Assembly: GCF_024362205.1 (NCBI RefSeq)
Contig: NZ_CP101462.1
Span: forward strand, 1,764,501-1,828,500
Reading direction: 5' to 3'
DNA length: 64,000 nt
Source: Exiguobacterium aurantiacum
Lineage (GTDB): Bacteria; Bacillota; Bacilli; Exiguobacteriales; Exiguobacteriaceae
Shown here: positions 207-5,976 of the stretch, piece by piece
Numbering within the stretch: position 1 is the first letter of the stretch
How the letters are laid out: each line of letters begins with the position of its first letter
Made by a program: the position numbers and the translations under genes
Notes under the pieces: model-generated
The model's database searches: none
Seen by the model: the letters and a program-made list of their open reading frames with translations, nothing else
Told to the model about the DNA's origin: nothing

Positions 207-1475
207 TTATACCCAACCGCGGAAGCGAGACGCTTCCGCCATCTTACGTACACCGACCATATAGGCGGCGAGACGCATGTCGACCTTACGGGCCGACGAT
301 GTATTGTATACCGTATTGAACGAGTGGACGAGCACTTTCTCAAGCTTCTCTTCCACTTCCTCTTCCGTCCAATAGTAACCTTGGTTGTTTTGGACCCATT
401 CGAAGTATGAGACGGTCACTCCACCGCTCGAAGCGAGCACGTCCGGAACGAGCAGGATGCCACGTTCCGTCAAGATACGGGTCGCTTCGTTCGTTGTCGG
501 TCCGTTCGCGGCCTCGACGACGATCGATGCCTTAATATTATCAGCGTTGTCTTCGGTGATTTGGTTCTCGATTGCGGCCGGGACCAAGATGTCGCAGTCG
601 AGTTCTAGCATTTCTTTGTTCGAGATCGTGTTCTTGAAGAGCGTCGAGATCGTCCCGAACGAATCTCGACGATCGAGAAGATACGGGATATCGAGGCCGT
701 TCTCATCGTGGATCGCACCGTACGCATCACTGACGGCGATCACTTTCGCCCCGGCGTCATGCATAAATTTCGACAAGAAGCTTCCGGCGTTCCCGAATCC
801 TTGGACGACGACACGCGCCCCTTTCAATTCGATGCCGCGGCGCAGCGCCGCTTCCCGGATCATGATGGCGACACCTTTTGCCGTCGCCGTCTCACGTCCA
901 TGCGAGCCGCCAAGGACAAGCGGTTTACCTGTGATGAAACCTGGTGAGTTGAATTCATCGATTCGGCTGTACTCATCCATCATCCACGCCATGATTTGCG
1001 AGTTCGTGAACACATCCGGCGCTGGGATATCTTTCGTCGGTCCGACGATTTGACTGATGGCGCGCACGTAACCACGGCTCAATCGTTCGATTTCACGGAA
1101 ACTCATCTCACGCGGATCACAGACGATTCCGCCTTTACCGCCACCGTAAGGAAGGTCGACGATTCCGGCCTTCAAGCTCATCCAGACCGACAATGCCTTC
1201 ACTTCGACCTCCGTCACGCTCGGGTGGAAACGAATGCCACCTTTCGTCGGTCCGACCGCATCGTTATGTTGCGCCCGATATCCTGTGAAAATTTTTGTCG
1301 ATCCATCATCCATACGTACCGGGATGCGGACGGTCAACATCCGAAGCGGCTCTTTCAAGAGCTCGTACATCTCTTCTGGATACCCGAGTTTATCAAGCGC
1401 CTCGTGTATCACTTCTTGTGTCGATTCAAGGATGTTTTTTCGTTTTTGATGACCTTTTTCTTGATCCGTAATCAT
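207..1475 (-). CDS. gudB: NAD-dependent glutamate dehydrogenase
   Basis: The 422-residue protein is a hexameric Glu/Leu/Phe/Val dehydrogenase that converts glutamate to 2-oxoglutarate and ammonium. Substrate and catalytic lysines sit in GPTKGGIRFHP (about 75-85) and GGGKGGI (111-117), the catalytic Asp is in PAPDV (151-155), and the NAD-binding Rossmann loop is QGFGNAG (225-231). The length matches Bacillus GudB/RocG. The start ATG follows an AGGGGAGG ribosome site. Residues 92-94 (VKA) occur once. The laboratory B. subtilis 168 gudB carries a 9-bp duplication here that inactivates it, so this copy should be active. A cre-like box lies upstream of the promoter. Confidence 0.95.
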   Translation of the reverse strand: MITDQEKGHQKRKNILESTQEVIHEALDKLGYPEEMYELLKEPLRMLTVRIPVRMDDGSTKIFTGYRAQHNDAVGPTKGGIRFHPSVTEVEVKALSVWMSLKAGIVDLPYGGGKGGIVCDPREMSFREIERLSRGYVRAISQIVGPTKDIPAPDVFTNSQIMAWMMDEYSRIDEFNSPGFITGKPLVLGGSHGRETATAKGVAIMIREAALRRGIELKGARVVVQGFGNAGSFLSKFMHDAGAKVIAVSDAYGAIHDENGLDIPYLLDRRDSFGTISTLFKNTISNKEMLELDCDILVPAAIENQITEDNADNIKASIVVEAANGPTTNEATRILTERGILLVPDVLASSGGVTVSYFEWVQNNQGYYWTEEEVEEKLEKVLVHSFNTVYNTSSARKVDMRLAAYMVGVRKMAEASRFRGWV

Positions 1476-2639: not shown

Positions 2640-3221
2640 TTACGCGAACGTATCGTACAGCTGTTTCACGGCTTGTTCAGTTTGAATCGTCTTGCCATAC
2701 TCCATCATGACGTACGGGCTGACGGTCGTCGTGCGGCCGTATTCCGACAAGATGGCGGCCAACCGCTCTTCGACGTCTGGTTTGAGCACTTCGACGAAGT
2801 GTAAATAATAGTGCCCGTCATAGTGATAGAGCGCTCCGCCCTGGTCTGTATCCTGCATGTGTGGGAACAGACGGACCGAGGCATTGATGACGTCCTCGAT
2901 ATCGTCAAACTGATAAATCAGATGATGAATCACATCAATCGTCAGACGAATCTCGACTTGTTCTTGATCCGCGTCCGGGACGGCCGCCTCGACTTTTTGA
3001 ACATCGATGACGAGACCGTCGCGCGGAAACATCGTCACGTTCAAGTCGACGGTGCCTTGGGGCATGAAGCCGAATTCCGCTTCCGCGGTCTCGAGCAATT
3101 CCCGCCACAGGTCTTGACCGCTCTCTCCGACGATCGTATCGATGGCGATCCCTCGAGTCGAAAGGTCACTCGCGGTCAAATATACCCTTAAATGTTCTTT
3201 AGTTTGCTTTTCAAATCTCAA
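2640..3221 (-). CDS. ypbH: MecA-family adaptor protein, YpbH type
   Basis: The 193-residue protein resembles MecA/YpbH, adaptors that bind substrates such as ComK and deliver them to the ClpC-ClpP protease. The N-terminal segment has the MecA-like RVYLTASDLSTRGI start and an acidic centre. The C-terminal domain carries the aromatic run YDGHYYLHF and the MMEYGKTI segment typical of the ClpC-binding half. The length (193) equals YpbH rather than the longer MecA, because the acidic linker is short. It starts with TTG, 7 bases after a GGAGG ribosome site. Its position near gudB matches ypbH in B. subtilis. Substrates cannot be read from sequence. Confidence 0.82.
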   Translation of the reverse strand: MRFEKQTKEHLRVYLTASDLSTRGIAIDTIVGESGQDLWRELLETAEAEFGFMPQGTVDLNVTMFPRDGLVIDVQKVEAAVPDADQEQVEIRLTIDVIHHLIYQFDDIEDVINASVRLFPHMQDTDQGGALYHYDGHYYLHFVEVLKPDVEERLAAILSEYGRTTTVSPYVMMEYGKTIQTEQAVKQLYDTFA

Positions 3222-3280
3222 ACGAAAACCTCCAAAGATTAATCAATCCTACTTTATAAGCTACTCTCGTTTGTTCAACC

Positions 3281-3296
3281 TGTCAAATAGTTGACA
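3281..3296. promoter_or_regulatory. Inverted repeat over the ypbH promoter region
   Basis: TGTCAA-ATAG-TTGACA is a perfect 6+4+6 inverted repeat. It spans the stop codon of the MerR gene and contains the TTGACA closest to a -35 box for ypbH, so it may be an operator, a weak hairpin or chance. Confidence 0.35.
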
Positions 3297-4140
3297 ACCA
3301 CTCGGTCCATGCTTCGGGCGTATCTCCGAGGAAGGCCGATTCGAACTCAGAGGCGTGAAGGCTGACGGCATGACCGCCGGCCCCGATAACAAGTTCGGGA
3401 TGGTCGGCTTGGATAAAGCGCATCGCTTCTTTCAAATCCTCAAGATGTTCCGTCAACGTGCATGAGAAAATCAAACACTTGGCGTCGATGTCGTGCAGTG
3501 CCACGTTCAAATCCTCTTTCGGGAAGCCCGCACCGAGGAAGATCACGTCGTATCCATATTGGCGCAAATAAAGCGTCACAAACAATAGGCCAATCTCATG
3601 CATCTCGCCCGGGGCACACACACAAATGATCCGCGGTAAAAATGGGTTCATCGGCATCTGTAGCGAGAGAGTGGACAAGCGAGCCCGCAAAAAAGCGGTC
3701 GCAAAGTGTTCATGCGCAATCGTGATGTCTCCATTCTCCCAACGTGTCCCGATTTCCATCAACAACGGACCAATGATATCTTTCGTGACTTTTTCAAAGC
3801 TGAATGTATTAAAGGCACGATTGATCAAATCGTGCGCCTTGCGTTCGTCAAATGAAAGTAACGCCTCGAGCAACCCCTCCATCAGTTCCTCGTCATAGAG
3901 ACGGGCAGGCTTCGGCTTCGGGGCTTCATGAAGTTGTTGGATCGCTTGGGATACGGTCAGGCCTTCGCGTTGTTTTTCAACAACCCATTTAATCTTTTCG
4001 ACGTCTTGGTCGGAATACAAGCGATGACCGGATTCGGTCCGGCTCGGCACGATGAATTGATAGCGGCGTTCCCACGCTCGAATCGTCGTCGGATTGACGC
4101 CGGTGAGCGACGCGACCGTCTTAATGGAGTACTTCGGCAC
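3283..4140 (-). CDS. MerR-family regulator with cobalamin-binding domain, CarH/LitR-like
   Basis: The 285-residue protein has three parts: an N-terminal MerR winged helix (about 1-70, with TTIRAWERRY), a helical B12-cap domain (about 80-160) and a C-terminal Rossmann-type B12-binding domain (165-285). The cap has W134, nine residues, then E144-H145, the Wx9EH motif of B12 photoreceptors. The B12 domain has E179-x-H181-x-x-G184, supplying the lower axial histidine, and GAGGH near 253-257. In Thermus CarH the equivalents are W131, E141-H142 and H177, so spacing is nearly identical. Such proteins bind adenosylcobalamin, repress in the dark and release DNA in light. The start is GTG after AAAGGAGGGG. 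Photoreception is inferred; the targets may include pigment genes elsewhere. Confidence 0.85.
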   Translation of the reverse strand: MPKYSIKTVASLTGVNPTTIRAWERRYQFIVPSRTESGHRLYSDQDVEKIKWVVEKQREGLTVSQAIQQLHEAPKPKPARLYDEELMEGLLEALLSFDERKAHDLINRAFNTFSFEKVTKDIIGPLLMEIGTRWENGDITIAHEHFATAFLRARLSTLSLQMPMNPFLPRIICVCAPGEMHEIGLLFVTLYLRQYGYDVIFLGAGFPKEDLNVALHDIDAKCLIFSCTLTEHLEDLKEAMRFIQADHPELVIGAGGHAVSLHASEFESAFLGDTPEAWTEWLSTI

Positions 4141-4175: not shown

Positions 4176-4204
4176 AGTATAGACCCATCTGAAGCGCTTT
4201 ACCT
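4176..4204 (-). promoter_or_regulatory. Candidate promoter of the MerR/B12 gene
   Basis: The minus strand has TATACT at 4176-4181 about 37 bases upstream of the GTG. No good -35 hexamer lies at 16-18 bp, so the promoter is weak as read. The 11-bp-spaced repeats lie just upstream. Confidence 0.5.
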
Positions 4205-4210
4205 GTTTTA

Positions 4211-4243
4211 TTGTGCAATTCTTGTGAGAAATTGGTGAGATGG
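4211..4243. repeat. Three imperfect direct repeats at 11-bp spacing, candidate regulator operator
   Basis: On the minus strand three consecutive 11-bp units read as CCATCTCACCA, ATTTCTCACAA and GAATTGCACAA, sharing the CAC(A/C)A end. They lie upstream of the MerR/B12 gene promoter. CarH-type regulators bind head-to-tail 11-bp repeats, so this fits an autoregulatory operator. The repeats are imperfect and short. Confidence 0.45.
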
Positions 4244-4273: not shown

Positions 4274-4302
4274 CACAAAAAATACGACGTCCCCGTCGTA
4301 TT
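4274..4302 (-). terminator. Intrinsic terminator after the 67-residue membrane protein gene
   Basis: AATACGACG, a four-base loop and CGTCGTATT form a 9-bp stem on the minus strand, followed by TTTTGTGT. It lies directly after the stop of the small gene and separates it from the MerR gene. Confidence 0.85.
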
Positions 4303-4303
4303 G

Positions 4304-4507
4304 TCAGAAAAATATTGTATGACGACCTATATATAAAAATACGAGAATAATGGCAAACATCGTCAATGTCAGCATCATGGCGAGCGGCCGTTTCAGCCAA
4401 TTGTCGTTTAATTTTTCTTTCCGCTCATGCTCTTGTCGCTCAGCGCGAGACGGCAACGTGTCCACCACTTGTTCACGAAGTGAGTCCGCTTGGTTCCGAT
4501 GTCGCAA
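4304..4507 (-). CDS. Small single-pass membrane protein of unknown function
   Basis: The 67-residue product has a hydrophilic charged N-terminal part (about 1-40, containing LPSRAERQEHERKEK) and one hydrophobic segment at about 43-61, ending IGRHTIFF. It starts with TTG, preceded by AAAGGAGGG at good spacing, and is followed by its own terminator, which supports a real gene. It occupies the position near recS where B. subtilis has ypbE, a LysM protein. The charged N-terminal style is similar, but no LysM domain is present, so I do not transfer the name. A cytoplasmic N terminus with a membrane anchor is likely. Function is not recognised. Confidence 0.7.
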   Translation of the reverse strand: MRHRNQADSLREQVVDTLPSRAERQEHERKEKLNDNWLKRPLAMMLTLTMFAIILVFLYIGRHTIFF

Positions 4508-4548: not shown

Positions 4549-5976
4549 TCAATCAAAGGAGAAGATACGAGATAAACGATGTTTCCAATCTGTCACATTT
4601 TTAGACACAATTTGAACCGACGGCGGGAAAACGATTTCCCCACAGACGTCGCAACAATCGGCTTGTTTGACCGGTTGCTCCGAGAAATAGTTCAACAAGT
4701 AATCCCGCCGACACGTCTTGATGAGGGCATAGTCCATCATCTGTCCGAGTTGGCGATAGCGGGCCTGCTTTCTATCTTTTACCCAGTCGATCGCCTCGGC
4801 AAGCGTCCGCTCAGCGAGCATTTGACTCAACAAACCCCAGACCGGGTCTTCCTCGTTCAATCGCAACAGGCGTGGCAGCTGAGCCAAACTCGTGCCGTTG
4901 TCGCGTTCCAAGTAGGCGAGACGGATATCTTTGTCTTTCGGATATTGTTGGTCAATCAAAAACTGTTGGATGCGTTCGTCGCCTTCGGCATAGAGCAAGA
5001 CGGCAAAAGCCGGTTCCCCGTCCCGTCCGGCACGTCCGATTTCTTGCATGTACGCCTCGAGCGTGGCCGGAATCTGATAATGGATGACCGACCGGACGTT
5101 ATCTTTATTCACGCCCATCCCGAACGCGCTCGTACATACCATGATGGCGACTTCATCTCGCAAGAATTGCGACTGCACGAGCCGGCGGTCCTCGGTCGAC
5201 ATGCCGCCGTGATAGAACAAGGCATCGTCGAGATGAAGGGCGAGCGCCTCGGCCTCACGCCGGGTCGCCGTATAGATGACGGCCGGTTTCGGCACATCGT
5301 GGACGAGTTCACTCAACCGCCGCATCTTATCCTCTGATTCGAGGCGTTCGACGATCAGACGAATCTCAGGACGGTTCGCTGAATGGACGAACTGCGATGG
5401 CGAGAACAACGCCAACTTCTCGATGATATCCCGTTTCACCGTCTCTGGGGCCGTCGCGGTGACGGCCATGCATTGCGGACTGCCGAGCTGTTTGCGCAAC
5501 TCGCCTAAGCGCGCGTACTCAGGACGGAACTCGTGCCCCCACTGCGAGATACAGTGCGCCTCGTCGACGACGAGCATTTGAATTTTCGTCCGTGCGAGCG
5601 CCCGCGTCACGTGCGGCACGGCGAGTTGTTCAGGCGATAAATATAAGAAGCGGTAACGTTTCAAATGGTTCAAGATGTCCTGCTTCTCTTCAAGTGTCTC
5701 CATCGACGTCAATCGCGCCACCCCGCGCTCACCTCGTTCGCGGATATGGAGCATCTGGTCCTCGATCAGCGACAAGAGCGGCGACACGATGATGGTCAGC
5801 CCGTCATTCTTAATATAAGACGGGAGTTGGAACGTCAACGACTTGCCGGCCCCGGTCGGCATGATGGCGAGCACGTCTTGCCCGTCGGCGACCGCATCGA
5901 TTACCTCACGCTGTCCCGGACGGAAAGTGTCATAGCCGAACACCCGCTTCAACGTCTTTTCAAACAAATGTCTCAC
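4549..5976 (-). CDS. recS: RecQ-family ATP-dependent DNA helicase (RecS type)
   Basis: The 475-residue superfamily 2 helicase unwinds DNA 3' to 5' during recombination and replication-fork repair. Walker A is MPTGAGKS (39-46), the Walker B/DEAH box 138-141, and motif VI is EIGRAGRDGE. The C-terminal zinc subdomain keeps CRRDYLLNYF and a CCDVC cluster. There is no HRDC domain, which with the short length fits B. subtilis RecS (YpbC) rather than RecQ. The 5' end overlaps ypbB by 17 bases, so the two are translationally linked. The ypbB-recS pair is conserved in bacilli. Confidence 0.93.
   Translation of the reverse strand: MRHLFEKTLKRVFGYDTFRPGQREVIDAVADGQDVLAIMPTGAGKSLTFQLPSYIKNDGLTIIVSPLLSLIEDQMLHIRERGERGVARLTSMETLEEKQDILNHLKRYRFLYLSPEQLAVPHVTRALARTKIQMLVVDEAHCISQWGHEFRPEYARLGELRKQLGSPQCMAVTATAPETVKRDIIEKLALFSPSQFVHSANRPEIRLIVERLESEDKMRRLSELVHDVPKPAVIYTATRREAEALALHLDDALFYHGGMSTEDRRLVQSQFLRDEVAIMVCTSAFGMGVNKDNVRSVIHYQIPATLEAYMQEIGRAGRDGEPAFAVLLYAEGDERIQQFLIDQQYPKDKDIRLAYLERDNGTSLAQLPRLLRLNEEDPVWGLLSQMLAERTLAEAIDWVKDRKQARYRQLGQMMDYALIKTCRRDYLLNYFSEQPVKQADCCDVCGEIVFPPSVQIVSKNVTDWKHRLSRIFSFD

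Follow-up and report, generated by a model that had tools for sequence, protein, structure and literature searches.

A CarH-type regulator gene, probably B12-dependent and light-responsive, at a conserved address in Exiguobacterium, and a candidate operator in the carotenoid gene cluster

Introduction

Two motifs, Wx9EH and ExHx2Gx41SxTx26GG, the latter in its general form D/ExHx2G-x41-SxT/V-x22-27-GG, define CarH proteins according to the available parts of PMC8156234 and PMC9304148. In the CarH of Thermus (TtCarH), as the accessible text of PMC10442372 describes it, Trp131 stacks on the adenosyl group of adenosylcobalamin (AdoCbl), and His132 becomes the upper cobalt ligand in the light state. 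The same text reports that the H132A variant of TtCarH is photolysed, with a hydroxo/aquo-like light state near 352 nm instead of the bis-His form near 359 nm; after light the variant dissociated in an earlier study, whereas a later one found it still mostly tetrameric. From the portion of PMC9304148 at hand, a His follows the Trp in many CarH members, not in all, and many members have an equivalent of the salt bridge Arg176-Asp201. Known CarH operators, described in that same portion, are tandem 11-bp repeats of the form nnnnTnnACAn, one of which lies over the -35 or -10 element. The LitR/CarH protein of Bacillus megaterium (CarH_Bm) is presented in excerpts of PMC9758184, PMC8156234 and PMC9304148 as an AdoCbl light-sensitive regulator, and in the latter two as a tetramer that turns into a dimer in light.

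A related protein of Exiguobacterium is already in print. In the sections of PMC6016940 that were available, Eab7_1666 of E. antarcticum B7 carries the annotation cobalamin-binding/MerR and has a model based on 5c8a; the CarH repressor is mentioned, and the protein is treated mainly as B12-synthesis-related, with no discussion of motifs, an operator or light switching. Here we describe the ortholog encoded in the window, the whole stretch of 64,000 nucleotides of Exiguobacterium aurantiacum DNA that was analysed, which a reading of the letters without database searches (the sequence-only reading) had taken for a likely B12-dependent light sensor. The carH regulon is a testable question in these easily grown, pigmented bacteria.

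Results

The carH gene and its product

All window features given below lie on the minus (-) strand. The carH-like open reading frame (3283..4140) encodes 285 amino acids from a GTG start, which is preceded by a ribosome site, AGGAGGGG. Its product combines MerR, B12-binding_2 and B12-binding domains, as assigned by Pfam, structure match and an AlphaFold model: a MerR_1 DNA-binding domain (PF13411, residues 4-68, 3937..4131; E-value 3.3e-16), a B12-binding_2 four-helix bundle (residues 87-158, 3667..3882; 1.1e-16) and a B12-binding Rossmann domain (PF02310, residues 170-268, 3337..3633; 4.2e-16). The CarH recognition motif RxWERRY is found at R21-Y27 (R21-A-W-E-R-R-Y27) and shows no variation across 17 aligned rows; our alignment A1 comprised the window protein and 16 of 23 loci, leaving out L033, L035, L036, L039, L042, L044 and L054.

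Among solved structures, Thermus CarH/LitR chains come closest, with TtCarH (PDB 5c8d) at an E-value of 1.3e-40, far beyond chance. The AlphaFold model, built from 17 own and related sequences (mean pLDDT 86.5, pTM 0.64), was matched by VIA-align to full-length TtCarH (5c8e_C) with Z 22.8 over 270 aligned residues at 34% identity; the rmsd of 11.8 over the full length results from the two domains standing at a different angle from those of TtCarH. The B12 part of the model alone gave Z about 22 and an rmsd of 2.1-2.2 A against TtCarH entries. With the CarH equivalog of NCBIfam (NF052513) the window protein scored 173.7 bits versus a cut-off of 400, a value reached by none of 398 Bacilli and none of 14 controls, Thermus composti among them.

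Genomic address and phylogeny

A full-length carH protein is encoded in 19/19 Exiguobacterium genomes (81-100% identity), and close orthologs (80-97%) occur in 15 Exiguobacterium records. Throughout the 19 genomes carH is adjoined by a small upstream ORF and by mecB. In the window, the mecB/ypbH-like gene (2640..3221; PF05389 MecA) follows carH downstream after a gap of 61 nt, with the glutamate dehydrogenase gene gudB at 207..1475; on the upstream side are the 67-aa ORF (4304..4507), with no Pfam or NCBIfam match, and the RecQ-family helicase gene recS (4549..5976). Profile matches and synteny thus bear out the neighbours recS, ypbH and gudB as the sequence-only reading had described them.

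Outside the family, 21 loci hold an ortholog of the window protein, 20 of them distinct, since L240 and L050 are one contig. By tblastn, the recQ-side gene and mecB were both seen at 15/21, the recQ side only at four (L231, L233, L238, L246) and the mecB side only at two (L047, L054), some stretches ending before the other side. A quick tree without bootstrap was computed from 58 rows (57 different): the own protein, 5 of 18 others of the genus, 3 of 19 from the second genus of the family, 48 further loci and Thermus CarH. With synteny labels assigned before the tree was made, the 30 rows of the recQ-mecB/ypbH-gudB locus, the window's included, formed one side of a branch with SH-aLRT 98, and the crt-linked Bacilli CarH proteins fell outside this clade. 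'Crt-linked' denotes tblastn matches to crt proteins within the stretch, which in L223, L227, L235 and L250 are matches to desaturase-type oxidases only; 40 further Bacilli loci had been picked by hand, non-randomly, from the class list.

One clade at a kept address means that carH is no stray insertion in a housekeeping region. The non-carotenoid setting noted in the sequence-only reading stands as far as the neighbours are concerned, but the place is not an odd one: the address between recQ and ypbH-gudB is old and kept across several Bacilli families. The CarH photoreceptor family has an old Bacilli clade at a fixed address, apart from the crt-linked copies.

Promoter region and operators upstream of carH genes

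The 67-aa ORF is followed by a terminator-like hairpin with a T run (4281..4302), after which carH probably starts a new transcript. TATACT (4176..4181), the probable -10 of the carH promoter, has the same six letters in 19/19 genus genomes. Alignment of the 19 genus upstream regions also revealed the block ATTGCACAATAAAA (4206..4219), of which the last 13 letters, TTGCACAATAAAA, are invariant in 19/19; the base in front of them is A in 13 genomes and T in the other 6. In the window, the TTGCAC of TTGCACAATAAAA lies 31 nt ahead of TATACT. Upstream of second-genus carH this block, TTGCACAATAAAA included, was not seen. As a genome-wide operator ATTGCACAATAAAA was rejected: at up to 2 mismatches its matches ranged from fewer than those of a reversed control to about twice as many (22 versus 11 in the own genome), with individual matches listed for six genomes other than the own one, and the own crt stretch held none at up to 3 mismatches.

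Two blocks in the gap between carH and ypbH (window 3222-3290), ATTTGACA and GAGTAGCTTAT, are conserved in 19/19 genus genomes, the former overlapping the carH stop codon. It may be that ypbH has its own promoter in this gap.

Operators of the known type were counted as exact TnnACA pairs at 11 bp, on either strand, within 300 bp upstream, and expected counts were taken from first-order Markov copies. The Thermus control returned its three known repeats. Same-locus orthologs in other Bacilli had a pair in 11/21 upstream regions versus 0.37 expected (10/20 without the duplicate row). In 9 of these 11 the core TATACAAAnTTTACACA lies 72-77 nt before the start, TTTACA being the probable -35, and these -35-overlapping repeats resemble the known CarH operators. 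Pairs were also present upstream of crt-linked Bacilli CarH genes (6/8; 0.13 expected) and of other Bacilli CarH-like genes (12/19; 0.42 expected). The upstream regions of Exiguobacterium carH contained an exact pair in 0/19; for the second genus, two of the six upstream regions printed had a pair, about 280 nt upstream near the start of the small ORF.

A search of the 19 genomes for three exact units at 11 bp (3x11) found nothing near carH or crt. Its recurrent match consisted of TTATCCACA boxes, which from their letters and contig-end place were read as DnaA boxes of oriC and rejected as operators; repeats of TTATCCACA at 11-bp spacing occur at G000:C1:3042834-3042861 in the own genome, with counterparts in other genus genomes. 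Such DnaA-box-like repeats mimic a three-unit CarH operator and are a trap for operator scans.

A TnnACA array and a candidate structured RNA between crtP and crtM

All 19 genus genomes share the synteny of the crt cluster, which lies, with the array described here, about 480 kb from carH. A strict TnnACA search (three units at 11 bp with at most one mismatch, or four units with at most two) found nothing in seven loci, the crt stretch L079 included. The exact-pair test at 11 bp, which had been fixed beforehand, gave 2 pairs in L079, both in one place, versus 0.24 expected, and no exact tandem pair in the pduO stretch L078. The operator search elsewhere in the genome that the sequence-only reading had suggested thus had a divided outcome: no strict 3x11 match near crt, but exact pairs and an array with 10-12 bp spacing within the cluster.

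The crtP and crtM genes converge, and this array lies in the strongly conserved sequence between their ends. It consists of five TnnACA units at 0, 11, 23, 33 and 44 from L079 7992, spaced by 11/12/10/11 bp. Unit 2 reads TGAACA in 12 and TGAACG in 7 of the 19 genomes, and unit 5 is variable; an unbroken chain of at least four units at 10-12 bp spacing is present in 12/19. We regard the array as a candidate CarH-type operator, unproven as such. Given this candidate in the crt cluster, a carotenoid link of carH is compatible with the distance.

We see an even chance that the array, which lies over the promoter of an RNA, belongs to another factor and that CarH has other targets. Another factor would agree with the empty strict 11-bp searches at crt, the array appearing only when 10-12 bp is allowed, with the degenerate state of the array in the second-genus genome G030 (L259), where the RNA is kept, and with the palindrome formed by units 3-4; DnaA-like boxes, too, give a 3x11 match. 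Against it stand the five units themselves, which make up the sole chain of at least three in the roughly 99 kb scanned from the own genome, whereas shuffles yielded 0.05 such chains per copy and chains of at least four in 0/60, odds that are flattered because the tolerance of 10-12 bp was set after the array had been seen. The excess of exact pairs in the test fixed beforehand also speaks against another factor, as does the conservation of units 1, 3 and 4, which are the same in 19/19 although the spacers between them vary.

We think it unlikely that the protein, as a light sensor, acts directly on the carotenoid enzyme operon as a repressor, in the way known from Thermus and Bacillus megaterium. 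Such control would suit the occurrence of the crt cluster in 19/19 genomes with an array inside it, but the crt enzyme promoter, a conserved sigma-A-like TTGAAC-17-TATAAT, has no TnnACA repeat and was discarded as a target, and the array precedes a noncoding transcript between crtP and crtM. In the available part of PMC6158405 a gene called 'carH' is placed in the crt context of Exiguobacterium SH31; because a single PF02607 gene adjoins mecB in the 19 genus genomes searched, we take this to be a name collision, which is unproven.

The candidate RNA extends over L079 8052-8385 (+), which is G000:C1 2,246,051-2,246,384 in the own genome. It is present between crtP and crtM in 19/19 genus genomes (also L080-L097) and, diverged, in one second-genus genome (L259 5465-5813, -). 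A weak sigma-A-like promoter, TCGACA-17-CATCAT in the own genome, has its -35 on array unit 4; another register reads TTGTCG-17-TAATAT, with TAATAT in 16/19 and TAACAT in 3, the own genome included. The region contains interrupted frames and indels whose lengths are not divisible by three. It folds with z -7.0, and the reverse strand with z -6.7; since both strands fold nearly equally, the strand was assigned by the terminator, an invariant hairpin followed by seven T in 19/19. Changes on both sides were seen in 9/103 base pairs. Of its seven CCCC tracts, five or more fall in predicted hairpin loops, and T[TC]CCC occurs 11 times in the 334 nt, versus a mean of 0.58 and a maximum of 6 in 1272 stretches. 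No Rfam family passes for the RNA, the best being ncr1175 with 28.8 bits versus 60. The second-genus RNA (one genome) has z -6.35, six CCCC tracts and a strong terminator. In one genome only (G011; L090 4827-5931), about 1.1 kb of extra sequence parts the RNA from crtM.

B12 economy of the genus

The B12-binding Rossmann profile PF02310 matches exactly once per genome in 19/19 genus genomes, at carH, and PF02607 (four-helix cap) exactly once per genome in 38/38 family genomes. MetH was not found by the PF02310/PF02607 profiles, nor was a mutase in the genus. Class II RNR was above the cut-off in 0/38 family genomes; the partial matches (best 157.6 versus 399.95 bits) were read as class I enzymes. 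The adenosyltransferase PduO is encoded in 19/19 genus genomes, and TIGR00636 (PduO) is above its cut-off in the own genome. QueG, another cobalamin user, likewise occurs in 19/19; it is a cobalamin enzyme with no known need for the adenosyl form. The pduO gene of the own genome (L078 7499-8098) is not among B12 genes: on one side it has a two-component pair, response regulator and histidine kinase, and on the other genes of ymfF/ymfH/ymfI type.

The control, B. subtilis, gave PduO, QueG and riboswitch matches and no match to PF02310 or PF02607. As B. subtilis keeps PduO without either fold, PduO alone is no proof of an AdoCbl-dependent regulator. In Exiguobacterium, carH encodes the sole protein of B12-binding fold by these profiles, and the AdoCbl made by PduO therefore has no other known reader there; this pattern fits AdoCbl being made for the CarH regulator. 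With one protein of this fold, the genus is a simple host for testing CarH light-state chemistry.

The protein might instead report the AdoCbl level of the cell, the AdoCbl form repressing and DNA being lost when AdoCbl is scarce. This would go with the absence of another known AdoCbl reader and with the literature available in part, in which apo-CarH of Thermus and B. megaterium binds its operator poorly. It would go as well with the cobalamin riboswitch search, which found none in 19 genus genomes, although in 18 of them scoring covered only 79 of the 84-121 first-look candidates and a miss is possible. We nevertheless hold level sensing to be doubtful: the AdoCbl-capping Wx9EH is kept in 19/19 and 19/19 orthologs of the two genera, AdoCbl is light-labile by nature, no B12 gene is among the identified carH neighbours, and the stretch around pduO is without an exact tandem TnnACA pair.

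Predicted B12-binding residues and the missing His132

Alignment with TtCarH confirmed the claim of the sequence-only reading that Wx9EH (W134, E144, H145) and ExHxxG (H181) stand at CarH-equivalent positions. W134 (3739..3741) corresponds to TtCarH W131, E144-H145 (3706..3711) to E141-H142, and H181 (3598..3600) to His177, the lower axial ligand; E179, H181 and G184 align with E175, H177 and G180. The full B12 motif is present as E179-x-H181-x2-G184, a gap of 41, S226-x-T228, a gap of 26, and G255-G256. W134, E144, H145, E179, H181 and G184 are unchanged in 19/19 genus and 19/19 second-genus orthologs, and Trp, Glu, both His and GG are identical in 38/38 family members. All 19 genus and all 19 second-genus orthologs, and 19/21 from further Bacilli, keep the Wx9EH and ExHxxG/P core intact; the motif Ser at the position of S226 is replaced by Ala in 8/19 genus orthologs. 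From domains, motifs, fold and conservation it is well supported that the window protein is a genuine CarH/class I LitR relative. Its earlier assignment to the B12-type CarH family, with predicted AdoCbl binding, is upheld by motifs, fold, conservation and the presence of PduO in 19/19 genomes.

At the position of TtCarH His132 the window protein has E135 (3736..3738), not His, a difference that the sequence-only reading did not mention. Among 86 aligned Bacilli rows, comprising 19 of the genus, 19 of the second genus, 21 other same-locus orthologs and 27 other CarH-like proteins, 80 have Glu at this position (19, 19, 20 and 22 by group) and none has His. The TtCarH dimer salt bridge Arg176-Asp201 is replaced by Met180/Gly205. 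As His is absent from all Bacilli rows aligned, Glu135 is no argument against light sensing there, and since H132A is photolysed, AdoCbl photolysis should proceed without His132. The fate of the light state depends on His132 in Thermus, so that the downstream chemistry must differ in the window protein; from the aligned residues, the Thermus light mechanism cannot be copied unchanged to it. For the Bacilli CarH rows aligned, all without the bis-His ligand, a different light-state chemistry is predicted; with Glu135, the window protein would be expected to show a hydroxo/aquo-like light state near 352 nm, as H132A does, and not the bis-His form near 359 nm.

In the same-locus ortholog of Alkalihalobacillus pseudalcaliphilus (L054) the Trp, the EH Glu and the lower-axial His are all lost, which probably makes it a natural B12-independent version; another same-locus ortholog, L247, has ER in place of EH.

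That the window protein is itself a CarA-like, B12-independent or altered regulator, with the fold kept and another signal such as redox or a partner protein, is very improbable, because Myxococcus CarA, as described in the sources available in part, is without the Wx9EH Trp, while this Trp is kept in 38/38 family members, even though His132 and the Arg176-Asp201 pair are gone and the motif losses in L054 and L247 indicate that B12 sensing does get lost in the clade.

Discussion

From these analyses, we consider that carH probably encodes a CarH-type (class I LitR) AdoCbl repressor, which is bound to DNA in the dark and released by light; the window protein likely senses light. In the dark, the AdoCbl-bound CarH oligomer would bind DNA and block a promoter, and light would break the Co-C bond, remove the adenosyl group and free the DNA. 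Speculatively, the main target in Exiguobacterium may be the promoter of the crt-cluster RNA with its TnnACA array of about 11-bp period, and upon illumination the CCCC (UCCCC) loops of this RNA could pair with Shine-Dalgarno sequences. The sole B12-Rossmann protein of the genus would then be a light-switched repressor of a trans-acting crt-cluster RNA, in a clade able to function with no His132 ligand, a combined proposal that we put forward as tentative and rather unlikely in its entirety. If the link to the RNA is true, a light-controlled small RNA would join B12 photobiology.

The Exiguobacterium ortholog Eab7_1666 is already in print, and the window protein therefore belongs to a known kind. 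Orthology is indicated by product and address, Eab7_1666 lying, in the published part at hand, two locus numbers from the RecQ gene Eab7_1668 and three from the HTH gene Eab7_1669. As far as searched, the locus clade, the Bacilli rows without His132, the economy of a single B12 fold, and the RNA with its array are new; a literature search that covered few subscription journals found no published account of the locus clade or the RNA.

Unpaired UCCC(C) loops, present several times, and a U-rich terminator characterise the UCCC-loop regulatory RNAs of Bacillota (LhrC, RsaA/RsaE type). The crt-cluster RNA shares both features with them, but is longer (about 330 nt) and has seven CCCC tracts.

Among the regulators, Myxococcus CarA, which is B12-independent, shares the domain plan in part; the accessible descriptions give it no Wx9EH Trp, whereas the window protein keeps W134. 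Class II LitR of Pseudomonas, according to the portions of the literature at hand, has the four-helix bundle only, and the window protein retains the Rossmann domain. The LitR/CarH_Bm protein of B. megaterium is, like the window protein, a Gram-positive CarH; the named B. megaterium CarH was absent among the plasmid-collection matches listed. With Thermus CarH (5c8d/5c8e/5c8f) the window protein has in common the arrangement of MerR domain, four-helix bundle and Rossmann domain, a fold that matches over 257-270 residues, and Wx9EH, ExHxxG, SxT/V and the GG region. It differs from Thermus CarH in being about 34% identical, in having Glu135 and Met180/Gly205 in place of His132 and Arg176/Asp201, and in the position of its gene, which is not beside crt genes and has its own promoter without the canonical repeat.
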